From NCBI RefSeq assembly GCF_002355835.1, contig NZ_AP017459.1, positions 434,001 to 498,000 of the forward strand: a DNA stretch of 64,000 nucleotides. Direction: 5' to 3'. This DNA is from Candidatus Endomicrobiellum trichonymphae (GTDB taxonomy: Bacteria; Elusimicrobiota; Endomicrobiia; Endomicrobiales; Endomicrobiaceae). Positions 4,587-23,806 of the stretch are shown here, piece after piece; the first letter of the stretch is position 1, and every line of letters begins with the position of its first letter. The notes beneath the pieces were generated by a model. The model saw only the letters and a list, made by a program, of their open reading frames with translations, had not been told where the DNA came from and did not search any database. The position numbers were made by a program, and so were the translations under genes.

Positions 4587-6092
4587 ATGATAATAAAGAG
4601 AGATAAAGATATAATTCAAAATTATTTTGAAGATAATTCGGGTGTCATAGGGTCCAGTGCCGATTTTGTTGCGCTAACGGAAACTGAAGACGATATATCC
4701 GGCTTTCTTGTTGAAATGTCTAAGTCTAAAACACCGGTAACGGTTGTAGGATCGCTTACGGGAAATACTGCCTCTGGACTTGCGTTCGGCGGGAGTGTGT
4801 TATCTTTGGAAAACTTAAATAATATCAGCGAAATAAAAGAGATTGATGATAAAAACGCTCTTATTACTGTTCAGGCTGGAGCAAAAATTCATGATATAAA
4901 ATTGAAAGCTTTCAACGGAGGCTGGATGTATCCGCCGGATCCTACTGAAAAAAATGCGTCTATTGGTGGAAATATTTCAACTAATGCTTCTGGAGGCAGA
5001 GGCTTTAAGTTTGGCGTAACGAGGGATTATATCAAAGCTTTAAAAGTTATTTTTTCAGATGGCTCTCAAAGTTATATCGAAAGGGGTAAATATTTCGCGG
5101 ATAAAAACGGCGGAATAACTTTTGATACGAATAAGGGTAAAAAACATATACTGCTTCCTAAATATCATTTGCCTGCAATAAAAAATGTCACAGGATATTA
5201 CAATTATCCCGCCGCCGATTTAATGGATGTTTTTATAGGTTCAGATGGCACTCTTTGTGTTATCGTCAAGGCCGTGCTTAAACTTATTCCTAGTTTTAAA
5301 GAAGTATTCGGCGGGATAATATTTTTTGAGAGTCGCAATAGCGCGTATGAATTTGTAAATAAAATAAAAATTATTTCTAAAAATACGGAAAAAGAAAATT
5401 TAAAAGATTCAATCAGCGCTATGTCTTTAGAATATTTTGATAAGAATGCATTGCTTATGATAAAAAATTATTATCCTGTCATACCTGAAAATATTGAAGC
5501 TGGTATTATGTTTGAACAGGATATATACGAAGATAATTTTGATATTCTAATGGAAAAATGGGTTGAAGCTATCAGTGACAGCGGCATTGATTTGGAAAAA
5601 GTTTGGTTTGCCTCGAATTTTGCACAGCAGGAAGAATTCAGAGTTTTCAGACACAGAATTCCAGAGTGTGTAAATGCAATTGTAAGAAAAAATAAAATTC
5701 CAAAATCCGGCACGGATTTTGCTGTTCCTGAAGGGAAACTGCCTGAAATTGTTGACTTTTGTGACAGGGAGTTTAAAAAATCTGGCATTTTTAATTTAAC
5801 TTTCGGACATATAGGTGAAAATCATCTGCATGCAAATATTATAGCTTCAAATAAAGAAGAATATGAACGATGCAGACGAATATGTGTAGATATTGCTCAG
5901 AAAGCTGTTGAGCTTGGCGGAACGGTTTCTGCGGAACACGGAATAGGAAAACTTAAACATATTTTATTGGAGAAGATGCTTGGTGAGAAAGGCTTTAAAG
6001 AAATGGCGAAATTTAAAAAAAGCATTGATGAATCCGGGATTTTGGGGCAAGATAATATATTCCCGAAAAATTATATTCAACGGATTCAATGA
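4587..6092 (+). CDS. glcD: FAD-linked oxidase, GlcD / D-lactate dehydrogenase family
   Basis: Cytoplasmic or membrane-associated flavoprotein that oxidises a 2-hydroxy acid such as glycolate or D-lactate; the substrate cannot be read from sequence. The 501 residues carry an N-terminal FAD-binding PCMH domain (about 40-235, with 'VVGSLTGNTASGLAFGG', 'PPDPTEKNASIGGNISTNA' and 'RDYIKALKVIFSDG') and a C-terminal FAD-oxidase domain with 'FGHIGENHLHANI' and 'SAEHGIGKLK', the His-rich signatures of the GlcD family. The gene is intact although decayed DNA flanks it on both sides. No adjacent iron-sulfur subunit (GlcF-like) is present, so it may act as a single-subunit D-lactate-type dehydrogenase; that is inference. 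Confidence 0.85.
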   Translation: MIIKRDKDIIQNYFEDNSGVIGSSADFVALTETEDDISGFLVEMSKSKTPVTVVGSLTGNTASGLAFGGSVLSLENLNNISEIKEIDDKNALITVQAGAKIHDIKLKAFNGGWMYPPDPTEKNASIGGNISTNASGGRGFKFGVTRDYIKALKVIFSDGSQSYIERGKYFADKNGGITFDTNKGKKHILLPKYHLPAIKNVTGYYNYPAADLMDVFIGSDGTLCVIVKAVLKLIPSFKEVFGGIIFFESRNSAYEFVNKIKIISKNTEKENLKDSISAMSLEYFDKNALLMIKNYYPVIPENIEAGIMFEQDIYEDNFDILMEKWVEAISDSGIDLEKVWFASNFAQQEEFRVFRHRIPECVNAIVRKNKIPKSGTDFAVPEGKLPEIVDFCDREFKKSGIFNLTFGHIGENHLHANIIASNKEEYERCRRICVDIAQKAVELGGTVSAEHGIGKLKHILLEKMLGEKGFKEMAKFKKSIDESGILGQDNIFPKNYIQRIQ

Positions 6093-6158
6093 TTAAGTAA
6101 GAAGTCAAAAAGTAGGTTATACACTGCTTGTCCAGTGTTTTTCAAGCAAGTACGATGT

Positions 6159-6171
6159 CCCCCCCCCCCCC
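6159..6171. repeat. Run of 13 consecutive C
   Basis: An uninterrupted C13 tract in A+T-rich DNA, 67 bases after the stop of the GlcD-like gene. It lies in no open frame. It belongs to a group of C/G homopolymers in this window (see also 7826, 14492, 22578, 32843 and 33106). Confidence 0.95.
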
Positions 6172-6229
6172 TGAAGTTCAATGAGTGTGTTGAGATTAGG
6201 AAAGGAAAGCCGGCGCAATCTATCAGAAA

Positions 6230-6250
6230 GATTTAAATCAATCATGAATT
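6230..6250 (+). repeat. 21-bp direct repeat, left copy
   Basis: Identical 21-base sequence to 6329-6349, containing the palindrome GATTTAAATC. The two copies are 99 bases apart (33 codons) and bracket the 90-bp inverted-repeat element. They may be a target-site duplication. Confidence 0.85.
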
Positions 6251-6337
6251 ATGCGAAATTTTCAGAATTGGCATCCTCATTAATTGATGTCGTAATCTTT
6301 GGATATAGTATTTCTTCCTGCTGTGATTGATTTAAAT
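6248..6337 (+). repeat. 90-bp inverted repeat, left copy
   Basis: These 90 bases are perfectly reverse-complementary to 7327-7416, checked base by base from 'attatgcg' to 'gatttaaat'. Identity ends abruptly at both borders. The copies bracket 989 bases containing a decayed coiled-coil lipoprotein gene. The element has no internal gene and no obvious long hairpin of its own. Confidence 0.9.
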
Positions 6338-6349
6338 CAATCATGAATT
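6329..6349 (+). repeat. 21-bp direct repeat, right copy
   Basis: Identical to 6230-6250. Here it overlaps the right end of the 90-bp element, and together with the preceding bases it forms the 16-base perfect palindrome ATTGATTTAAATCAAT at 6326-6341. Confidence 0.85.
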
Positions 6350-6423
6350 TAGGGTACAAATATACATTTGCGGGCATAAAAACTAAAGGATTAAAAAGAC
6401 TGGAAGATAAAAAAACTAATTAA

Positions 6424-7216
6424 TGTTTTACATTTTGATGTGTTTAGGCTTGTTGAGCTTTAGCGGTTGTTGTAACAAGGAAGTAGATGCTAAATCCAGT
6501 GAATAAAGTGTCTGCAGTTGAAGTTAGTCAAGGGAAAACGTTGAGTGAAACGGTATGGAGTGTCGCTAACAATCCGTATGTTCTAGCTATTCTGATGGAC
6601 GGTGTTATCTCTGCTGTTTGGTATTTGGGCTTTTATAAGCCGGTAATGAAAAAGATGTCGGACTTGGCTAGTGTTTCTCCGACAGAGGAAGAGGATGAGC
6701 GGTCTGATAAAAGTGTTCAGAACTTAGAGAAACAACTTGAGGCTTTGAGGTTTAGTAAAAATGGATCTGAGTGGCTTGCAACTGAAAAGACGAAGGAGCT
6801 GAAAAGTCTTGAAAAACCAGTTAGAGGCATTTCGTATCGCTTCACATGGTTTAGTAGGCAAACCGGAAACGGCAGAGGAGTTGCGAGTAGCAATTATCAA
6901 AGTAATTAAATATAGTATGGATTTGCGGAAAGAGAAAAGGGATTTTGATAACGTTAAACTGTGATCACTCAGAGTGGTGTCAGAAACTTCAACAGGAGAT
7001 TGCATAATAGATAAACCAGATTAAGGAATTAAATCAGCAAAAAGCCAGTTTATCAAAAATATCAAACAGTTTTTTAGACTGCTTCCAACTTTTCTTATTT
7101 GCATAAACATATTTCACAATGAACCGACTGCCCATCAACTGGCTATAATGTGGGACGGAATTGACAAAGGCGGAGTCGAGAATGCATAATAAAACAAAAG
7201 AGAAAAGATGAAGCAT
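6424..7216 (+). pseudogene. Decayed lipoprotein / membrane-anchored coiled-coil protein
   Basis: At 6424 a short frame reads 'MFYILMCLGLLSFSGC', a lipoprotein signal peptide with a lipobox, and stops after 27 codons. A second frame from 6487 carries a hydrophobic stretch and then a coiled coil with two similar blocks, 'LEKQLEALRFSKNG' and 'LEKQLEAFRIASHG'. The second block needs a one-base shift near 6820, where an extra C breaks the frame; corrected, the frame runs to TGA 6964. Further heptad-like residues continue to about 7075. This is therefore one multi-hit pseudogene of unknown function. It lies wholly between the two arms of the 90-bp inverted repeat. Confidence 0.5.
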
Positions 7217-7326
7217 ACAGTGTTCAACTATATGCTTCTGTTGTATTTGATAATATCTTAATTTAAAAGTTTTTGAATATCAAAAGTTTATCAATTCAAT
7301 CCAGTATGTCAAATCACGTTTGTAAA

Positions 7327-7416
7327 ATTTAAATCAATCACAGCAGGAAGAAATACTATATCCAAAGATTACGACATCAATTAATGAGGATGCCAATTCT
7401 GAAAATTTCGCATAAT
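7327..7416 (-). repeat. 90-bp inverted repeat, right copy
   Basis: Exact reverse complement of 6248-6337. In this copy the flanks do not show the 21-base direct repeat. A consensus-like promoter begins nine bases downstream (7425). Confidence 0.9.
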
Positions 7417-7424
7417 ACACAAGT

Positions 7425-7452
7425 TTGACAAAGAAATTCAAAAAAATATAAA
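7425..7452 (+). promoter_or_regulatory. Candidate sigma-70 promoter for the M50 protease pseudogene
   Basis: TTGACA at 7425-7430 and TATAAA at 7447-7452 are separated by 16 bases. A Shine-Dalgarno-like AAGGA and the ATG at 7506 follow 45-55 bases downstream. The promoter lies just outside the right 90-bp repeat. Confidence 0.55.
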
Positions 7453-7505
7453 ATTACTTATCAATTTTTGTATGATATTTTAATAAATAATATAAAAGGA
7501 CAGCA

Positions 7506-8135
7506 ATGAAGGTTTTGTATATGTTGTGATTTTGCTTTTTCGGCAATAATTCATGAAGTAGCGCACGGATATGTCGCTTATTTAAGAGGATGATACAGCC
7601 AAAATGGGGCAGGATGTACTACTTTAAGTCCTAACCACACATAGAATTATTTGGGACTATTTTACTTTCAGCAATATTATTGGTTTTGAAAACACCTGTT
7701 CTTTTAGGATAGGCAAATCCCGTTCCTTTAAATCATAGAAATTTAAAAAATCTGAGAGAGGATGTTCCGCTTGTTTGTCTTGCCGGACCTGCCTCCAATA
7801 TATTGCTTGCTTTTCTGTTAGGACTGGGGGAGGGGGGATGCATATTGCGAAATATTTTCCGAATTTTGAGCTTATACGTAACTGATTGATAGAACATTTT
7901 TTATATATGGCGATTTATTTTTGCAGTTGTTATAAATCTTATACCTGTTTCGCCTTTTGACGGTTCAAAAATTATAACATATTTTTTTGCCTGAAAAAAT
8001 TGCGGCAAGATATTTAAATTTAAAGCCATACATTTGTTTAATACTGTTGTGATATTGTCGTCTAAAATAATGTGGAAGTTTATATATTACATAGCAAATT
8101 TTTTTGTAGTGATTTCCAGAATAATTGCTTTTTGA
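7506..8135 (+). pseudogene. Decayed M50 family (site-2 / YwhC-type) membrane metalloprotease
   Basis: The family hallmarks can still be read, in shifted frames: the zinc motif HExxH as 'IIHEVAHGYVAYLRG' near 7545-7592, then 'DVPLVCLAGPASNILLAFL' near 7761-7815, and the NPxPxxPFDG-type motif 'INLIPVSPFDGSKII' near 7932-7976. A hydrophobic C terminus follows to TGA 8133-8135. Stops and shifts occur near 7527, 7590, 7640-7730, 7825 and 7890-7985, including a G5-A-G6 run at 7826-7837. Intact members are intramembrane proteases. In related bacteria this gene sits next to trpS and scpA, as here. It cannot make a working enzyme. Confidence 0.8.
7826..7837. repeat. G5-A-G6 tract inside the M50 pseudogene
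   Basis: A nearly pure G tract lies at the point where the frame of the M50 protease remnant is lost, just after 'ILLAFLLG'. It has the same bipartite form (two G/C runs split by one base) as the tracts at 4322, 27280 and 33106. Confidence 0.85.
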
Positions 8136-8188
8136 TGTTTTTCCGAGTTAAACAAAAAGAAAATTTTAAAATAAACAGAGAAAATTAT

Positions 8189-9160
8189 ATGAGTAAAGTG
8201 TTGTCAGGTATGCGTCCAACAGGCAGGCTCCATTTGGGTCATTATTTCGGCGTTCTGGTGAACTGGGTTAAATTTCAAAATGAATGTGAATGTTATTATA
8301 TGTCAGCAGACTGGCATGTTTTAACTACCAGTTATGTTGATACTTCTGCAGTTAATGAAAATACTTTAGAAATGGTTGCCGATTGGATTACCGCGGGTAT
8401 AGATCCCGAAAAAAGTGTATTTTTTAAACAATCAGGAGTACTTTATCACAGTGAATTGTTTTTAATACTTTCTATGATAACTCCTCTGAGCTGGCTTCAA
8501 AGATGTCCTACGTACAAAGAACAAATAAGTCAAATCAAAAATAAAGATCTCAGCAATTACGGTTTTTTAGGCTATCCTATTTTAATGTCTGCAGATATTC
8601 TTCTGTATAAAGCCGATATTGTTCCTATCGGAGAAGATCAGCTTTCGCATCTGGAGCTTACTCGCAAAATAGCAAGAAGATTTAACAACTTTTACGGTGA
8701 TACTTTCATTGAACCTAAAGAAGAACTTACAAAAACTGCAAGCGTTCCGGGCTTAGACGGAAGGAAAATGTCAAAATCTTACGGCAACTCAATTCTGCTT
8801 GGCGAAAGCGATGATATTTTAAGGGATAAAGTTAAAAGTATGTTTACGGATCCTCTAAAAATAAAAACAGCCGATCCCGGACATCCATGCGGTTGTGTAG
8901 TTTTTGCGTTTCACGAAATATTTGGCATAGAATATAAAAATAGGGAAGAAGAATGCAAAGCAGGTGCAATAGGGTGTATGTCGTGTAAAAAACAGTTAAT
9001 GGAAATGCTTTCTGAATTTATGAAACCTTTGACTGAGAAAAGAAAAGACTTAATTGCCGATAAAGCGTATTTGGAAAAGATAGTTGAAGCGGGATGCCGA
9101 AAAGCCGCGGAAATTGCGCAGCAAACCATGGAAGAGATCCGCAAAGCAATGAAGTTTTAA
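8189..9160 (+). CDS. trpS: Tryptophanyl-tRNA synthetase, possible Fe-S type
   Basis: Class I synthetase that charges tRNA-Trp. From ATG 8189 the product is 323 residues; the frame is open upstream to 8072 but that part does not resemble the family, while 'MSKVLSGMRPTGRLHLGHY' is a classic start. HIGH-like 'HLGH' is at residues 15-18 and 'KMSKS' at 193-197. The C-terminal region has the cysteine pattern C-x21-C-x6-C-x2-C, beginning at 'HPCGC' and ending 'GCMSCKK'. This is close to the C-x22-C-x6-C-x2-C that binds a [4Fe-4S] cluster in the Thermotoga maritima enzyme. scpA follows. Confidence 0.95.
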   Translation: MSKVLSGMRPTGRLHLGHYFGVLVNWVKFQNECECYYMSADWHVLTTSYVDTSAVNENTLEMVADWITAGIDPEKSVFFKQSGVLYHSELFLILSMITPLSWLQRCPTYKEQISQIKNKDLSNYGFLGYPILMSADILLYKADIVPIGEDQLSHLELTRKIARRFNNFYGDTFIEPKEELTKTASVPGLDGRKMSKSYGNSILLGESDDILRDKVKSMFTDPLKIKTADPGHPCGCVVFAFHEIFGIEYKNREEECKAGAIGCMSCKKQLMEMLSEFMKPLTEKRKDLIADKAYLEKIVEAGCRKAAEIAQQTMEEIRKAMKF

Positions 9161-9287
9161 TAGATGTTTGCCGGCTGTTTGATTTCTTTTGAAAAAATTA
9201 GGATTTTAAATATCCTGAAAAGAATGTAAAAATACAGATACTCTAGAGGATAGGCTCTGCTCGTTGTGATAGAAGAATGGGATTGTT

Positions 9288-9992
9288 ATGGTTTATGACA
9301 TACATCTTGATACATTTGAGGGACCTTTAGATATTCTTCTGCATCTTATAAAAAAGAACGATTTGGAAATTAACGAGATAAAAATAGCCGAAATAACAGC
9401 CGAGTACCTTACGTATCTTGATTTGATGCAGGAACTTAATATTGATATAGCAGGTGAATTTCTTGTTATGTCGTCGACTCTTATACAAATAAAGGCGAGA
9501 ACTCTTATTCCGTCAAATAATGAAAAAGATATCTTAGAGGACGATTCTTTAAGTTTTCTTAAAAACAGACTTTTTGAATATCAAAAATATAAGGAACTTG
9601 GAAGACTTTTATCGTATAAAATTATAGAAAATTCGCAGATTTACTATAGACCGGCTCTCCCGATAAATAAACAGGATTTTGTTTTAGATGCTACGATTTT
9701 TGATTTAGTGGGCAGTTTTCGCACAGCTTTAACGAGGCTTCCGGAAAATATAAAAGAAATTATGTACCAGGAAATTCCTATTGAGACAAAAATCAGGGAA
9801 ATTCTTGATGTTTTAGAGGGAAGACAGTATATTTCTTTTAATGATATATTAAGAATGCAAGAGACTAAAACAGCGCTGATAGTGTGTTTTATGGCTGTTT
9901 TGGAACTTGTAAAAAATAAGCAGATTGTCGCTAAACAGTCCGAATTATTTTCGGAAATAAGAATTTATAGGATTTACAATAAAGAAGAATAA
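9288..9992 (+). CDS. scpA: Segregation and condensation protein A (kleisin)
   Basis: ScpA is the kleisin subunit that bridges the SMC ATPase heads and works with ScpB in chromosome organisation. The 234 residues include the typical N terminus 'DTFEGPLDILLHLIKKNDLEINEI' (split here only for reading; residues about 8-31), the amphipathic segment 'EFLVMSSTLIQIKARTLIP' and a C-terminal winged-helix region that contacts the SMC head. The length is typical. The partner scpB lies about 1 kb downstream, separated by decayed DNA, whereas in most genomes the two genes touch. Confidence 0.9.
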   Translation: MVYDIHLDTFEGPLDILLHLIKKNDLEINEIKIAEITAEYLTYLDLMQELNIDIAGEFLVMSSTLIQIKARTLIPSNNEKDILEDDSLSFLKNRLFEYQKYKELGRLLSYKIIENSQIYYRPALPINKQDFVLDATIFDLVGSFRTALTRLPENIKEIMYQEIPIETKIREILDVLEGRQYISFNDILRMQETKTALIVCFMAVLELVKNKQIVAKQSELFSEIRIYRIYNKEE

Positions 9993-16473: not shown

Positions 16474-16619
16474 GAGGATAATATTTCGTATATAGCTTTG
16501 AAAAGCATAAGCTTATGTGCCATTTGCTTTGTGCTTTTGTTTTTTCATTTTGCATTTCTAAACTGCTGTAAAATAGTTGGTAAATACGGCGTAAAAACGA
16601 TGTCTTTTGCGAGGTGAAA

Positions 16620-17582
16620 GTGAAGAAGTTAAGTTTAGGAAATATTGAATTTGACAATAATATCATTCTTGCCCCTATGGCTGGGATAACGGATTTACCT
16701 TTGCGTCGTCTTGCAAAAAGCGGTGGAGCCGGACTTGTATATACGGGGATGCTGTCTGCTAGAGCGCTTGTCCGTAGTGATGAAAAAACAGAAAAACTTT
16801 TAAAAACAACAGAGGATGAAAGACCTGTTGCGGCGCAGATTTTCGGCAGTGTTGCTCATATTATGGCGGAAGCGGCAAAAATTGTCAGAAACAGTGGCGT
16901 TGACATCATAGATGTCAATCTTGGATGTCCTGTGAAGAAAGTAGCGAAAGCCGGCGCTGGAGCTAAACTTCTCGCCGATGAAAAGCTTGTTTCGGAAATT
17001 TTAGAATCTGTTGTAAAAAGTGTTGATGTCCCCGTTACGGTTAAAATTCGCACTGGTCTTTTGCCGGAACATAATGCGGCAACAGAAATTATCAAAGTAG
17101 CGTATAATTGCGGGATAAAAATGGTTGCGGTGCATGCAAGACCTGCTTCGCAGGGACACTCCGGATTCCCTGATTTAAAATTATTCGCTGCTTCCTGTGC
17201 CGGCGCAAAAATTCCCGTTATTGCAAACGGCGGTGTTGTAGATGAAAAAACTGCGGCTGATTTTTTACGAGTGCCAAACTGCGCTGGAATTATGATAGGA
17301 CGCGGTGCCTTAGGCAATTATTCGATATTTAAAAGACTTGAAGCATTTTTTAGTAGCGGTAAAAAACTGCCATTGCCGTCAAAAAAAGAAAAAGTGGAAT
17401 GGTTAAAGAAACACGTCCAATATTCAGTGGAATATTATGGTGAAAAAAAAGGATTTGTCGTTATGAAGAAAGTTTTCCATTACTATGTTAAGGATCTGCC
17501 AAATGCCGCAAAAATACGGGATATATTTAATAAAAAAATAGTTACATTGTCGGACTTTAATGAGTTAATAAAGCTTTTTTAA
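16620..17582 (+). CDS. dusB: tRNA-dihydrouridine synthase, DusB type
   Basis: FMN- and NADPH-dependent enzyme that reduces uridines in the tRNA D-loop. GTG codons at 16614 and 16620 are both possible; 16620 is preceded by GAGGTG and gives about 320 residues, the family length. The TIM-barrel signatures are clear: 'NIILAPMAGITDLPLRRL' (about residues 13-30), 'VDIIDVNLGCPVKKVAKAG' with the catalytic Cys, 'VTVKIRTGL', 'VHARPASQGHSG' and 'IPVIANGGVVDEKT'. A C-terminal helical tRNA-binding domain follows. The gene is intact and about 140 bases downstream of tsaD. Confidence 0.93.
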   Translation: MKKLSLGNIEFDNNIILAPMAGITDLPLRRLAKSGGAGLVYTGMLSARALVRSDEKTEKLLKTTEDERPVAAQIFGSVAHIMAEAAKIVRNSGVDIIDVNLGCPVKKVAKAGAGAKLLADEKLVSEILESVVKSVDVPVTVKIRTGLLPEHNAATEIIKVAYNCGIKMVAVHARPASQGHSGFPDLKLFAASCAGAKIPVIANGGVVDEKTAADFLRVPNCAGIMIGRGALGNYSIFKRLEAFFSSGKKLPLPSKKEKVEWLKKHVQYSVEYYGEKKGFVVMKKVFHYYVKDLPNAAKIRDIFNKKIVTLSDFNELIKLF

Positions 17583-17908
17583 GGTTTGTTGCCGCAGGTT
17601 TTTCTCATCGCTGTTATGGCAGAAGTGTAAGTGTAAAAAAAATAAATATTTCCTCAGGCTCAATATCAGGATGGGAAAAATTAAAAAAACAAAAAGGCTT
17701 TCACGTCTACGTCATAGAAAAAGAAAAACTGTTAAAACCCGTTATTACTGTATCGAAAACCTTATGAGCGCAATATTCTTTTATGTTTATTGCAGCCGAC
17801 AGAAGTGTCTTTCGCACATTTGGAGTTGAGCTACTTTCTGTTGACAGAAAAGTATAATAATGTATAGAATAGTTGAGAAGCGGAAAATAAAAGCAGATGA
17901 ATTTTTAA
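17583..17908 (+). other. Gap with an unidentified coding remnant
   Basis: About 17590-17760 can be read without stops as a stretch containing 'INISSGSISGWEKLKKQKGF' and 'VYVIEKEKLLKPVITVSKT', and about 17778-17858 as 'SFMFIAADRSVFRTFGVELL' in a shifted frame. This has the look of a broken gene, but I cannot assign a family. The last 50 bases probably carry the leader of pal. Confidence 0.3.
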
Positions 17909-18414
17909 ATGAAAAAGTTTTTATTGCTGGTGCTGGCTACCACGTTTATTTTTACAGCAGGCTGTAAGAAACAAGACATAAAGCATGACAATATAGACAG
18001 TACAGACAGCGTAGAAACAATTGTTTTTACTGACGAACCGTCGATAAGAGGTAATCATTTCGATAGAGATATAAATCTTAAGAGCATATATTTTGATTTT
18101 GATAAAAATGATTTCAGAAAAGATTCTATGGAAATATTAAAAGAAAATGTGGATTATTTAAAAAGCAATCCTGATATAAAGGTTGTTCTTGAAGGTCATA
18201 CCGCAATGAGAGAGGTATGGCCGAATACAATTTGTCTTTAGGACAGTGCAGAGCTTTAAAAGTTAAGGAGTATTATACGCTGCTTGGAGTTGCTGCCAAC
18301 AGGATTGCAACAACTTCGTACGGACATGAAAAGCCTGTTGATTTTAGAAAGAATGAATTAGGGTGGGCAAAGAACAGGAGAGTGGAAACGAAACTGCTGG
18401 TGAGACAAAGATAG
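17909..18414 (+). pseudogene. pal: Frameshifted peptidoglycan-associated lipoprotein Pal
   Basis: ATG 17909 opens a lipoprotein signal peptide with lipobox 'FTAGC' (about residues 17-21). The OmpA/Pal peptidoglycan-binding domain follows: 'IYFDFDKNDFRKDS', 'IKVVLEGHT', then, after a frame change near 18205-18215, 'AEYNLSLGQCRALKVKEY', 'LGVAANRIATTSYGHEKP' and 'KNRRVETKLLVRQR'. Joined, the two frames give a Pal of about 168 residues with every expected block, so a single small indel inactivated a complete gene. Intact Pal ties the outer membrane to the cell wall as part of the Tol-Pal system. Every other Tol gene downstream is also broken. Confidence 0.9.
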
Positions 18415-18454
18415 ATTAAACATTACAGATTTATATCGGTATATTTTATATTTA

Positions 18455-19119
18455 TTATGGTTTTTACCACTCTGGATGATGCATCACGTTAAATTCAAGT
18501 GCAATTACAGATTTGAAAGGCGAGCTATCGCGGTTGCAGATACAGAATAAAGAACTCCGGGAAAATCAGTTCGATTTATATACAAAAGCTGATTCGACTT
18601 ATGTGATGCTTGACGTTCTTAGTGCTTCGCTGCAGGATTTGCAGAATAAGATTTCTGTATTAAGCCAGGCGATACATGATTTGAAAGTTGTTACAGATAA
18701 AAGATCAAAAAGCAACGACCAATCTGTTCTGCCTTCATTTATTTTACCAGAACGCTTACGGCGATTACTTAATGGCAAAATTTGACCTTGCGTATTCGGG
18801 ATTTCAGTCGTTTGCAGATAAATATCCTAATGCTGAACTTGTGCCACAAGCTCAGTTTTATATGGGTGAATGTTTTTATTCTATGAGTATGTGGGACAAA
18901 GCTCTTGAAGAATACAAAAAAGTAGAGCAGCGTTATAAAAAAAGATCAGATTTGGTGTCGTCTGCAAGGCTTAAAATAGCTTTATGCTGCCAAAAGCTTG
19001 ATAAAAATGAGGAAGCGATAAGAATGTTTTCGTCAATAATAAAAGATTTTCCGCAAAGTCCGGAATCTTTAACGGCAAAAGAGAGTATCGAAATATATAA
19101 TAATGCTCAAAAGAGGTAA
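18455..19119 (+). pseudogene. cpoB: Frameshifted CpoB/YbgF, Tol-Pal associated TPR protein
   Basis: A coiled-coil segment ('LKGELSRLQIQNKELRENQ' and 'VLSASLQDLQNKISVLSQAI', about 18513-18680) matches the N-terminal trimerisation helix of YbgF. After a frame change near 18740 the C-terminal TPR domain is complete: 'NAYGDYLMAKFDLAYSGFQ', 'PQAQFYMGECFYSMSMWDKA' and 'KIALCCQKLDKNEEAIRMF', ending at TAA 19119. The signal-peptide region before 18513 is also out of frame. CpoB coordinates Tol with peptidoglycan synthesis in E. coli. The order pal-cpoB fits, but the gene cannot give a full-length exported product. Confidence 0.85.
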
Positions 19120-19841
19120 TTTATTTCCTTATTTAATAGTTTCAGTATTTTTTGCATGTGGCGATTTATTTTCTGTTTCACCGTGAGGAAAATCCTGTTT
19201 TTTTGTCTTCGACTATAGAAGTTTCTTTTTATTCTCCATCCAGTCAGAGAGCAGAACAATCACCGGCTGCAGTTTCTTCAAAAAAACCGGAGCGGTAGCG
19301 GCATGGGAACAGATAAAAAGCAAAGAAGATATAATCGTAAAGAAAAAAAAGCTCCGGAAAAAAACGGACGGACTAAAATTCGAAGAGAAGCCGAAATTTC
19401 AAATTGAAACTGACACAAAAAAATCAGATAAGCAGTCCGCAAAATCTGTTGGAGAAAAAAACTGAAAATAGTTGAGTTTTCAGGCAATAGCAGCAATGTT
19501 GAAACTTTTCAAGCACCGGATTCCGATAAACTGCTTGCCGGAACAGACTCGCAGTATGAGGGACTTTCTTTTGATGCTAAGAGTTTCAAGTATTCTTACT
19601 ATAGTGAGCAGATAATAAGGAAAATATGGAAACAGTGGATGTGGGGTGAGAATTACGGAAAGCTTAAAGTGCTTGTATATTTTAAAATCCGCAGAGACGG
19701 AACAGCATATGATTAGAATCTTCGGGAAACGGCGAATACGATAAATATGCTTTAGATGCAATCCGCAGAGTGGTGCCTTTTAATTATTTGCCTGACGGTT
19801 ATGAATACGATTCGCTGGGAGTTTTCTTTGAATTCAAATAA
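19104..19841 (+). pseudogene. tolA: Decayed TonB/TolA family protein
   Basis: ATG 19104 overlaps the end of cpoB and starts 'MLKRGNLFPYLIVSVFF', a membrane anchor of the TonB/TolA type, followed in a shifted frame by 'STIEVSFYSPSSQRAEQ'. A long lysine-rich spacer (about 19290-19460) is broken by stops. The TonB-like C-terminal domain is readable at about 19555-19838: 'YYSEQIIRKIWKQWMWG', 'KLKVLVYFKIRRDGTAYD', an in-frame TAG, then 'YALDAIRRVVPFNYLPDG' and 'LGVFFEFK'. The protein would link the inner-membrane motor to TolB and Pal. At least four lesions are visible. Confidence 0.8.
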
Positions 19842-19862
19842 AGGAATTAAAATATCAAAATA

Positions 19863-21163
19863 ATAATAAAAATCTTATTTATTTTTACGGTTTTGTTTTT
19901 TGTGGTGACTATCTATGCGCAGAGCAATGTTTGTCTTTCTCTTTCCGCGACTGGAAAAAGATCTGATATTGCTGTAGAATATTTTATTGCTGCGGATAAA
20001 AAAGATGATTCCGTAAAATATGCAAAACTTTTAAAAGAGATAATAGAAAATGATCTCATTCTTTCCAGACATTTCAATGTAATACAAAACGCATTTGAAG
20101 ACGGTGAGAAGACCGTTTTTAAGTAAAAGTTGCCTTTATGGGAAAAAAGAGGAGGAGCATCAGTTCTTCTTACAGGTTCTGTGTCTATTAACGGTGATAA
20201 ACTCGTTCTTGAGATAAAAATGGTTGACGTTATCAGCGGAGAAACAATATGGAAGTGTAATTATAAAAACGAATCTTTAAACTACAGATATATGGCTCAC
20301 GAAGCAAGCGACGAAATTGTGAGAAAGTTTACGGGTGAAATGGGCATAGCGCGTTCAAAAATAGTTTTTGTAAATGACAGTACGAGATTTAAAGAGTTAT
20401 ACATTATTGATTATGACGGGTATAATCTTCACAGACTTACAAAAGACAATAAAATAAATATTATTCCTAAGTGGTCACCGGATGGGGAACAGATAATTTA
20501 TACAAGTTATCTCTACAATAATCCCGATTTATTTGTATTAGATCTTGTTAAAAACAGACGCAGCATTATTTCAAAATATCAGGGATTGAATACCGCCGGT
20601 TCGTTTTCTCTGGATGGAAAAAAATACTTCTGACTTTATCGCGTGGCAGATATCCGAATTTGTATTTGATCAATACATCCGGTGAAATACTGCAGCGGCT
20701 GACTAACAGTTCGTACATTGATACAAGTCCTTTGCTCCTAATGAACGGGAGATAGTATTTATTTCAGACAGACCCGGCTATCCCGCAGCTTTATATAATG
20801 AATGTCAACGGCGGAAATATAAGAAGGCTTACGACAAGCGGTTTCTGCGGTTCTCCGTCATGGCCTCCGCGCGGCGATAAAATTGTTTTTACAATGAGGC
20901 AGCCAAAAGGGAATTATGACTTATATGTCTATGATTTGCCTACTGCAAAGATAACAAAACTTACAAATAATCAGCGAAATAATGAAAATCCGACATGGTC
21001 GCCAGACGGAAGATTTGTAACATTTTATTCAAACAGATCCGGTAAAGGCGAAATTTATGTAATGGCTATCGACGGTTCGGGAACAAGAAAATTTGCGGAA
21101 ATCTTGGGTCCCATCATGGTCCCCTGTTTTAACAAGATAAAAAGTTTTTGTGTAAGAGGATAA
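19863..21163 (+). pseudogene. tolB: Decayed TolB beta-propeller protein
   Basis: The signal peptide is readable from about 19866 ('KILFIFTVLFFVVTIYAQS'), but the expected ATG is ATA, so even the start is lost. An in-frame TAA lies at 20124. The N-terminal TolB domain continues ('GASVLLTGSVSINGDKLVL'), then beta-propeller blades with the TolB repeat: 'PKWSPDGEQIIYTSY', 'PTWSPDGRFVTFYSNRSGKG' and 'GSPSWPPRGDKIVFTMR'. Frames change near 20630, 20740 and 21105. TolB is the periplasmic partner of Pal and TolA. It sits between the TonB/TolA and TolQ remnants, so the operon order of the lost system can still be read. Confidence 0.88.
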
Positions 21164-21164
21164 A

Positions 21165-21545
21165 ATGTTTGAGGGGAAAAGTTTTATAGATATACTCAAT
21201 ATGGGCGGTTGGACGCTTTTCGTTCTTTTCTTTTGGGAGCTTCAGTCCTTTCAGTAGCAATAATTTGTCTTAAGCTGGTTGAATTTTGGATAAAATCAAA
21301 AACAACAAGGTCTCAGTTTGTGTGTAAACTGATGAAAAAAATTAAAAAAGACAAGCTTGACGAAAAGGATAATGTCTATCCTTGTTAAAAAAGAAGCGCA
21401 TTCAAAAATCGTAATATATGTGTTCAAAAATTTACTTAATATAATGTCGAAATTGTGTTGTCGGGAATGGATAAATAAAGTGAAGAACCGCAAGAAGAAC
21501 TGAGAAAATTGCGGAGAGAACGCTGATATTGTGTCTGAACCATGC
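21165..21545 (+). pseudogene. tolQ: Decayed TolQ/ExbB proton-channel protein
   Basis: Starting at ATG 21165 with AGAGGA upstream, the text reads 'MFEGKSFIDILNMGGWTLF', then after a shift 'LGASVLSVAIICLKLVEFWI', the first membrane helix of the MotA/TolQ/ExbB family, then 'SQFVCKLMKKIKKDKLDEKD'. The remainder to about 21545 is broken and far shorter than the roughly 220 residues of TolQ; the two C-terminal membrane helices are missing. No tolR/exbD remnant is seen. This closes the dead Tol-Pal cluster. Confidence 0.7.
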
Positions 21546-21614: not shown

Positions 21615-22577
21615 ATGGCAAAAAGAGTAGGTATTATAACTTCAGGTGGGGATGCCCCGGGAATGAATGCGGCTATCAGAGCCGTCGCAAGACGCGGGAT
21701 TTTTTGGGGATACCAGATGATAGGTATAAAAAGAGGATTTAAAGGACTTCTTGACTATGAATTTATGACGCTTACTTTGCGATCGGTAAGCGGTATAATA
21801 AATACTGGCGGAACAGTGTTACACACGGGAAGATGTCCTGAAATGAAAACAAAAATCGGAATGGGCAGAGCTGTTAAGGCTATAAAAGACCTTGGATTGA
21901 GTGCTGTGATAATTATAGGAGGAGACGGTTCTCTGGCTGCTGGTAATTCCTTGTCAAAACACGGAATAAAGGTTATAAATATTGCAGCATCTATTGATAA
22001 CGACATATACGGCACAGATGAAACTATAGGTTATGACACGGCTTTAAATACTGCTGTAGAAGCTATAGACAAAATAAGGGATACTGCAAAAAGCCACGAC
22101 AGGGTTTTTGTAGTTGAAATTATGGGCAGGGAACACGGATTTTTAACTGTTGACGTCGGACTTGCAGCGGGTTGCGAATATATAGTGGTACCGGAAATGA
22201 AAGTTGATATGCAAAAACTTACTGCAGAGCTCAAGAAAGGAAAAGAAAGAGGAAAAACTTCTGAAATTATAGCTTTTGCCGAAGGATGTGGTTGTTCAGC
22301 TGAGTTTGCAAAAAAAGTGGAAAAACTTACTGGTCTTGACGTAAGAGTAAGCAATCTCGGATATATACAGCGTGGCGGAAGACCAACTGCCAGGACAAGA
22401 ATACTTGCTTCAAAATTCGGACATGCCGCGATGGATCTTTTCCATAAAGGAAAAGCGAATCTTTTTGTAGGAATAACTAACGGCAATGTATCTGCAGTAT
22501 CGATTTGTGAGGCTATAAAATGTGAAAAGAAATTTGATGTAAAGACCGCTAAAATAGTGAAAAATTTGTCAGTTTAA
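21615..22577 (+). CDS. pfkA: 6-phosphofructokinase
   Basis: Commits fructose 6-phosphate to glycolysis. ATG 21615 with AGGAG eight bases upstream gives 320 residues; the frame is open further back to 21555 but lacks family resemblance there. The N terminus 'RVGIITSGGDAPGMNAAI' is typical. The 'IIGGDGSLAAG' motif has the Gly found in ATP-dependent enzymes, where pyrophosphate-dependent ones usually have Asp. The catalytic 'SIDNDIYGTDETIGYDTA' is present, although the usual P-G-T before IDND reads A-A-S, so the phosphate donor should be tested. A C10-AT-C5 tract begins directly after its stop. Confidence 0.93.
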   Translation: MAKRVGIITSGGDAPGMNAAIRAVARRGIFWGYQMIGIKRGFKGLLDYEFMTLTLRSVSGIINTGGTVLHTGRCPEMKTKIGMGRAVKAIKDLGLSAVIIIGGDGSLAAGNSLSKHGIKVINIAASIDNDIYGTDETIGYDTALNTAVEAIDKIRDTAKSHDRVFVVEIMGREHGFLTVDVGLAAGCEYIVVPEMKVDMQKLTAELKKGKERGKTSEIIAFAEGCGCSAEFAKKVEKLTGLDVRVSNLGYIQRGGRPTARTRILASKFGHAAMDLFHKGKANLFVGITNGNVSAVSICEAIKCEKKFDVKTAKIVKNLSV

Positions 22578-22639: not shown

Positions 22640-23806
22640 ATGAACGAAGCGTTGGAAAAAATTAAGCGCGGAGCAAATGAAATTATTTCTTTTGAAGAAC
22701 TTAAAAAGAAACTCGCTTCTGGTAAAAAATTAAGGATAAAACTGGGAATTGATCCCACCACTTCGGATTTGCATTTGGGGCATACTGTTATTATAAATAA
22801 ATTAAAAACTTTTCAAGATTTAGGTCATCAGATAGTATTTTTAATCGGTGATTTTACGGCAAGAATAGGTGATCCGTCTGGCAGATCAGAAATGCGTCCC
22901 GTTATGACGGATGAACAGATAAAGAATAATGCGCGAACTTACGCCGATCAGATATTTAAAATTCTCAATAGAGATAAAACAGAGATTGTATATAACAGTA
23001 AGTGGCTGAGTGAACTTGGCGTAAAGGGACTTTTAAATCTTGCTGCAAAAAGTACGGTAGCTCAGATGCTTGTGAGAGATGATTTTAAAAAGAGATATAA
23101 AGAAGACAGTCCGTTAAGTATAGTTGAATTTCTCTATCCTTTGCTTCAGGCTTATGATTCTGTGGTTTTAAATGCTGACGTTGAACTTGGCGGTAGTGAT
23201 CAGAAATTTAATCTGCTTCTCGGAAGAGAAATACAAAGAGATTACGGAATTAAAGACGTACAGGTTGTGATTACTATGCCTCTTTTAGAGGGGACTGACG
23301 GCACTAAAAAAATGTCGAAATCGTATAAAAACTGCATAGCTTTAAATGATTCGCCTGAAGATATGTTTGGAAAGATAATGTCAATTTCCGACGAACTTAT
23401 GTGCAGATATCACGAGCTTCTTACCCAGATAGACTTAAATGTCGTTAAGAATATGCATCCTAAAGAGGCAAAATCTGCGCTAGCCAAGGAGCTTGTGGAA
23501 AGATATTACGGAAAAGAAGAAGCTTTAAAGGCGGAAGAAGAATTTGATAGAATTTTTTCAAAGAAAAACATTCCAAATGACATCGGAGAATATAGGATAA
23601 AGGACGAAGAAATAAAACTGTCCGATTTGCTTGTTAAAAGCGGTATGGTTTCAAGCCGGAACGAAGCAAGACGTATTATAGAGCAGGGCGGCGTAAGAAT
23701 AGATTCGCGGAAAACAGTCAGGGATTTCGTGGTTAAATCTGGAAACACGTTTGTTCTTCAGGTGGGTAAAAGAAAATTTAACAGGATAATAAGAGAGGAA
23801 AATTGA
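22640..23806 (+). CDS. tyrS: Tyrosyl-tRNA synthetase
   Basis: Class I synthetase for tRNA-Tyr. ATG 22640 is preceded by a purine-rich GGGAAAGAG and gives 388 residues. 'DPTTSDLHLGHTV' carries the HIGH-like motif (about residues 40-52) and 'GTKKMSKSYKN' the KMSKS loop (about 220-231). The C-terminal S4 RNA-binding domain reads 'VSSRNEARRIIEQGGVRID' (about 340-358). The domain order and length fit the TyrRS subgroup with an S4 tail. The gene is intact. Confidence 0.96.
   Translation: MNEALEKIKRGANEIISFEELKKKLASGKKLRIKLGIDPTTSDLHLGHTVIINKLKTFQDLGHQIVFLIGDFTARIGDPSGRSEMRPVMTDEQIKNNARTYADQIFKILNRDKTEIVYNSKWLSELGVKGLLNLAAKSTVAQMLVRDDFKKRYKEDSPLSIVEFLYPLLQAYDSVVLNADVELGGSDQKFNLLLGREIQRDYGIKDVQVVITMPLLEGTDGTKKMSKSYKNCIALNDSPEDMFGKIMSISDELMCRYHELLTQIDLNVVKNMHPKEAKSALAKELVERYYGKEEALKAEEEFDRIFSKKNIPNDIGEYRIKDEEIKLSDLLVKSGMVSSRNEARRIIEQGGVRIDSRKTVRDFVVKSGNTFVLQVGKRKFNRIIREEN

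Follow-up and report, generated by a model that had tools for sequence, protein, structure and literature searches.

A Tol-Pal operon predicted to be dead

We examined a 64,000-bp stretch of the chromosome of 'Candidatus Endomicrobiellum trichonymphae' (GCF_002355835.1, contig NZ_AP017459.1, positions 434,001–498,000; hereafter the window, whose numbering applies unless another locus is named), which carries the remains of a Tol-Pal operon. Tol-Pal ties the outer membrane to the cell wall. Powered by the proton gradient, it gathers Pal where the cell divides; in mutants the envelope blebs and leaks, and phospholipid builds up in the outer membrane. Between 17909 and 21364 on the + strand, pal, cpoB, tolA, tolB and a stump of tolQ follow one another in order, tolR is deleted, and profile searches matched fragments of this region to OmpA, TPR_6 and PD40. 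The genome comprises 1,130,840 bp in four contigs, with a chromosome contig of 1,114,532 bp. From sequence, we predict that the locus is a dead Tol-Pal operon (pal-cpoB-tolA-tolB-tolQ-tolR) lacking function, in a symbiont of termite-gut protists of the 'Ca. Endomicrobium (Endomicrobiellum) trichonymphae' type, with a probability of about 0.85.

The former content of the operon could be read from G056, the closest relative among the genomes compared (81% complete), which was placed as sister to the window genome in a TyrS tree (26 rows, support 100/97). G056 carries an intact, syntenic operon (locus L048), 88–95% identical to the window copy, in the order tsaD, dusB, pal, cpoB, tolA, tolB, tolQ, tolR, a 456-amino-acid (aa) membrane protein, a Crp-like cNMP-binding protein, an AI-2E-family transporter, pfk and tyrS, all of them open. 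Its Pal (TIGR02802, Pal_lipo) and TolB (TIGR02800, propeller_TolB) proteins scored above cut-off, and its tolQ (128 bits), tolR (113), tolA (41) and ybgF (79) matches fell below the curated cut-offs. The presence of pal, tolB, tolA, tolQ and tolR orthologues together in G056 identifies the ancestral operon as Tol-Pal. A TonB-ExbB-ExbD identity was ruled out, since tolQ scored 128 against 91 bits for exbB and tolR 113 against 76 for ExbD, and since both tolB and pal lie alongside. The tol gene order is common to G007, G074 and G010, the last a single-contig genome of 1,588,979 bp from another genus. An initial annotation of the window had described five genes in order on one strand, each broken, and this description stands; the genes it left as tonB/tolA and tolQ/exbB are tolA and tolQ, and the deleted tolR went unmentioned.

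Lesions were called by comparing the window with the G056 operon, and indels were polarised with G007 and G074 as outgroups. The remains are as follows.

17909..18414, + strand: pal pseudogene; start codon and lipobox retained; +2 frameshift at 18204; 92.9% identity to G056 pal
18415..19119, + strand: cpoB (ybgF) pseudogene; start ATG to ATT at 18415; +5 at 18472; +1 at 18742
19103..19844, + strand: tolA pseudogene; +1 at 19148, −7 at 19290/19291, −1 at 19455, −10 at 19713
19863..21140, + strand: tolB pseudogene, start approximate; start ATG to ATA; nonsense TAA at 20124
21165..21364, + strand: tolQ stump, about the first 65 codons; +5 insertion at 21223; remainder deleted
21364..21365, no strand: junction of a 4,235-bp deletion relative to G056, joining about tolQ codon 66 to DNA before pfk
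21365..21479, + strand: 115-bp stretch, 84% identical to G056 intergenic DNA between the AI-2E transporter and pfk; not tolQ

No remaining tol gene is without a disabling frameshift. The single deletion took away what followed of tolQ, the whole of tolR and another three genes, which encode the 456-aa membrane protein, the Crp-like cNMP-binding protein and the AI-2E-family transporter. The pal frame is broken inside the OmpA domain, so that profile positions 1–41 and 46–98 lie in two frames, and the N-terminal lipoprotein piece is 110 aa long. The C-terminal TPR part of cpoB is open (18688–19119, 143 aa). tolA also carries in-frame losses of 9 and 3 bases, and tolB is shifted by −1 at 20615–20617, −4 at 20730, +1 at 20782 and −11 at 21108. 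Altogether there are 12 frame-shifting indels (pal 1, cpoB 2, tolA 4, tolB 4, tolQ 1), two lost start codons (cpoB and tolB) and one clear nonsense codon (tolB, 20124); two further stops in the substitution counts are not independent lesions, one lying beside the cpoB +5 and the other one codon before the natural end of tolA. All 12 frameshifts are derived on the window branch, G007 and G074 sharing the G056 state, with a loose alignment around the cpoB +5. Comparison with G056, which retains the operon intact, places the loss after the split of the two lineages.

The view of the initial annotation that a whole Tol-Pal system is eroding in place is borne out by the syntenic G056 operon and these 12 shifts, as are the single shift it saw in pal and the lost start and several shifts it saw in tolB. 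It was also right that tolQ is truncated, by the 4,235-bp deletion, but it carried the cluster on to 21545, whereas the tolQ remnant ends at 21364.

Relaxed selection on the tol genes and not on their neighbours

The intact flanking genes served as an internal comparison; the promoter-like site ahead of pal is listed with them.

16614..17582, + strand: dusB, upstream anchor, intact, zero indels relative to G056
17841..17870, + strand: sigma-70-type promoter-like site ahead of pal, TTGACA-18 bp-TAGAAT, retained; compared by eye
21618..22577, + strand: pfk, downstream anchor, intact, zero indels relative to G056
22640..23806, + strand: tyrS, downstream anchor, intact; used for the genus tree

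In the same comparison with G056, 12 frameshifts fell in 3,455 bp of tol sequence and none in the 3,096 bp of dusB, pfk and tyrS. An operon that is truly intact could in principle look broken through mistakes in sequencing or assembly, such as those that arise with amplified single-cell DNA, and some shifts do lie beside homopolymer runs (the tolB −1 near 20616 and the tolA +1 at 19148); our judgement was made from the assembled sequence. However, the neighbouring genes are free of indels, single-base slippage in homopolymers does not account for most of the 12 shifts (+2, +5, −7, −10, −4, −11, +5), and a 4.2-kb deletion, lost start codons and raised nonsynonymous change are atypical of such errors. 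Lipopolysaccharide (LPS) pathways of the related strain Rs-D17 are, moreover, described in print as interrupted by pseudogenes (PMC4505116, in the section cited). We consider an error of this kind extremely improbable. Programmed frameshifting was ruled out by the number of different lesions, the lost starts and the deletion.

Substitutions, polarised with G007, were counted in the tol genes and in a flank consisting of tsaD, dusB, pfk and the first 320 codons of tyrS. The ratio of nonsynonymous to synonymous changes in the tol genes was 96/44 on the window branch and 56/45 on the sister branch (Fisher p = 0.043), compared with 57/65 and 46/53 in the flanking genes (p = 1.0). The tol genes differed from the flank on the window branch (p = 0.0004), with p = 0.26 on the sister branch. 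Crude omega was 0.57 for tol on the window branch and 0.33 on the sister branch, and 0.25 for the flank on both. Selection has been relaxed on the window branch for the tol genes and not for their neighbours. If dead genes run at an omega of 1, these values would correspond, as a rough estimate, to neutral decay along some one third to two fifths of the branch length since the split.

We looked to lesion density for the sequence in which the genes died and found none: frameshift density is even across the genes (Monte Carlo p = 0.91), and therefore neither an order nor a better-kept Pal can be claimed. The initial annotation had ranked Pal as the best preserved and had the system lost gene by gene; each gene is indeed broken, but the first of these claims is not upheld by the even spread of lesions, and for the second the data fit simultaneous decay. 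In keeping with this pattern, the first disabling hit in tol may have been fixed by drift, and the rest would then have decayed together, neutrally.

It could also be that some fragments still work, for example the 110-aa Pal lipoprotein or the CpoB TPR part, expressed from the retained promoter. The pal start codon and lipobox persist, the promoter-like site has an identical −35 element and spacing in G056 and G007, and the CpoB TPR part is open over its 143 aa. Yet the Pal frame breaks within the OmpA domain, the motor formed by TolQ and TolR is gone, and nonsynonymous change is raised across the tol genes; we regard residual function of this sort as very improbable.

Intact copies elsewhere in the genome, a possibility that the initial annotation had raised against its own reading, were not found for TolB, Pal, ExbB or ExbD, in searches that did not separately target CpoB-like or TolA/TonB-like paralogues. 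Family searches gave zero matches in the genome for the MotA/TolQ/ExbB and ExbD families, the two pal pieces as the only OmpA-domain matches, and pseudogene pieces as the only TolB matches, in searches that did return matches in control genomes. For TolQ, TolR, TolA, TolB and Pal, every frame in the genome is broken or absent. The pull on Pal at the division site that the proton motive force drives would be gone in this cell.

Several relatives with smaller assemblies retain Tol-Pal

To place this loss we surveyed 41 genomes. TolB was matched in 30 of them, counting the broken window copy, ExbB in 30 and ExbD in 29. tolQR lie within the primary operon in, for example, G056, G007, G074, G049, G051, G052, G053, G067 and G075. 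Among assemblies of 0.6–0.8 Mb, tolB, tolQ and tolR are open in the operon of G048, G049, G051, G052 and G053, and pal is also retained in the four whose contigs extend to it (G049, G051, G052 and G053). Because these small relatives keep the operon, intracellular life alone is an insufficient explanation for its loss. The initial annotation had called for comparison with relatives and had attributed the loss to life inside a host cell; the comparison found the operon intact in G056 and kept in small genomes of the same genus, and as a sufficient cause that attribution fails. Blochmannia, an old obligate symbiont lineage, likewise conserves six of seven Tol-Pal operon genes in all six genomes discussed in the cited part of PMC4389277, and therefore intracellular life alone does not entail loss.

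Three genomes (G060, G061 and G063) gave no match to any Tol-Pal component and had no tol gene around tyrS. G034 and G047 (TolB/Pal) and G036 (ExbB) were not scored as losses, as their contigs end beside the expected place, and absence was not counted as loss in the low-completeness genomes G059, G064, G066, G068, G069 and G071. Tol-Pal loss recurs in the genus but is not the rule.

A loss favoured by selection would be a further possibility, if a leaky, vesiculating envelope released amino acids and cofactors to the protist. In model bacteria, mutation of tol-pal compromises the barrier that the outer membrane provides (PMC7391070, in the part cited), and Mies et al. argue, in the text cited, that the loss of other wall functions may make it easier to exchange metabolites (PMC11257099). 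The even lesion density and intermediate omega form a neutral pattern, however, and most relatives expected to share such a trade keep the operon, which makes selection for loss very improbable.

In several genomes, no tolQR follows tolB and the pair is located elsewhere (for example G018, G024, G038, G040, G042, G046 and G065), mostly accompanied by a tolA-like gene (none was matched in G065). Loci L031, L032, L034, L035, L036, L037, L039 and L040 are of this second kind, with a tolA-like gene plus tolQR, the main operon lacking tolQR where seen. In a short search, the second-locus TolQ proteins mostly clustered together within the genus. Relocation of the motor and its replacement by a paralogue are candidate readings. 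In G062 and G058 (L144 7124–7519 and L146 7335–7742), tolR stands directly after tolB, tolQ is missing there, and another tolQR pair lies elsewhere.

A simplified outer membrane as a possible permissive step

The lesions in the genome extend to other parts of the envelope. In the lpx operon, outside the window (L252 ~4634–9779; G000:C1 ~878,600–883,800), lpxD, lpxC, lpxI, lpxB and the two lpxA copies, together with genes for an aminotransferase and an oxidoreductase, are broken or truncated, with fabZ open in their midst and the adjoining bamA also open (BamA, 760 aa). LpxC is present only as fragments in the genome and is open in G056, where all genes of the lpx operon are open (for lpxB, as far as the extracted sequence reaches). 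MlaE lies in three frame-broken pieces between intact neighbours (L289 4321–4883; G000:C1 ~538,300–538,900). Pseudogene-interrupted LPS biosynthesis is likewise described for Rs-D17 ('Ca. Endomicrobium trichonymphae'; PMC4505116, same section).

We compared 20 lpx loci from 19 genomes, some of the regions being partial where contigs end. In G062, G052 and G063, too, lipid A synthesis has been lost or is in ruins. A strict coupling of Tol-Pal and LPS across the genus was not seen, the exceptions being G052, G062 and G060. In many relatives lpxC and fabZ form a fusion, which is split into two frames in G056, G007, G060, G049 and G034 (L253 9294–10645, L254, L257, L261 and L262).

Our best reading is that Tol-Pal loss represents recent neutral decay in a cell whose outer membrane had already been simplified. 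The decay is seen directly in the lesions; what permitted it, we infer from the accompanying losses. Loss would be tolerable in a bacterium living in protist cytoplasm with an outer membrane free of LPS, since such a cell would have less lipid asymmetry and barrier function to defend. With lipid A genes and MlaE broken, the loss fits outer-membrane simplification better than intracellular life alone, though the losses are not strictly coupled in the genus. Several observations weigh against this account. The promoter-like TTGACA-18-TAGAAT site of pal is retained in the window, and the contrast between branches within the tol genes alone is barely significant (p = 0.043). G056 (81% complete) has no MlaE match, and therefore the loss of MlaE may predate the split. 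G052 and G062 have lost lpxC yet keep Tol genes, and G060, which has no Tol match, keeps lpxD, lpxC, lpxA, lpxI and lpxB.

A causal refinement of the same account would have LPS loss come first and directly make Tol-Pal dispensable, if Tol-Pal and Mla mainly served LPS/phospholipid asymmetry. Tol-Pal and Mla mutants alike disturb outer-membrane phospholipid content (PMC7391070, in the part cited), lipid A, Tol-Pal and Mla all carry lesions here, with BamA and FabZ left open, and G063 similarly lacks both lpxC and Tol. The three exceptions to coupling speak against it; we consider this refinement unlikely, although worth keeping in view. Returning to neutral decay in a simplified envelope, we tentatively suggest, at somewhat less than even odds, that the lineage dismantled its entire apparatus for outer-membrane lipid homeostasis, losing lipid A synthesis and Tol-Pal since the split from a sister that has both LPS and Tol-Pal, and MlaE at some point, keeping BamA and the fatty-acid gene fabZ within the ruined lpx operon, and may have become a diderm free of LPS, of OmpA domains and of Tol. 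Such a cell would be a natural test of the purpose of Tol-Pal in the absence of lipid asymmetry.

Mies et al. (2024) reported that many Endomicrobiellum lack key LPS genes, OmpA and TolB, which most other genera possess (PMC11257099, in the text cited). Their report, as far as that text goes, is at the level of presence and absence, whereas the lesions, sister comparison and selection test are from the present analysis. The same text describes the genus as having retained LPS and an intact envelope, which the genome studied here contradicts for itself. Joint loss of Tol-Pal and LPS core genes, as here, is described in the cited part of PMC4494066 for the tick Coxiella-like CLEAA and for Baumannia BGSS; those reduced symbionts have tick or insect hosts and belong to another phylum, whereas in this genome the tol genes are still readable in place. 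We found no paper joining Endomicrobium and Tol-Pal in a search that did not include the original Rs-D17 and genomovar papers. With broken LPS genes and missing TolB already reported for the group, what we describe is real but ordinary genome decay. Its value lies in following the loss of Tol-Pal lesion by lesion, by reference to an intact copy in a sister that is about 90% identical, in a genus whose smaller genomes keep the system. The case separates living in a cell from being able to dispense with Tol-Pal, and suggests that simplification of the outer membrane may have been a permissive step.

Additional observations

The 456-aa membrane protein, which has no Pfam match, adjoins the tol operon in many genus members and in G010 (for example L048 5661–7031, L162 6811–8082 and L138 7373–8692); its gene is deleted in the window genome and decaying in G007. 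It is possibly an unrecognised partner. Upstream of pal, a 228-bp spacer between dusB and pal (17593–17820) is absent from G056, and G007 DNA at that place is of similar length and shows little similarity.

Two oddities were noted among the flanking genes of relatives. tyrS of G007 is seemingly split (L128 12068–13747), with residues 1–320 followed by residues 306–384 about 470 bp further on, which is unexpected for an essential synthetase. In L150 (G045:C3) 563–1788, the 3' part of pfk occurs four times in alternating orientation, probably through amplification or as an assembly artefact.

The small contigs C2–C4 (L291–L293) measure 5.0–5.8 kb, and a plasmid collection was searched with L291 and L292. 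Each matched the 'Ca. Endomicrobium trichonymphae' plasmids NC_020420–NC_020422 in pieces, at 89–94% identity, and for neither contig did a single plasmid record account for 80% of its length in one place; they are probably rearranged relatives of these plasmids. Judged by this plasmid similarity, the genome most likely belongs to the same species as Rs-D17. It would represent another strain, the Rs-D17 chromosome being given as 1,125,857 bp (PMC4505116, as cited) compared with 1,114,532 bp for the chromosome contig here.

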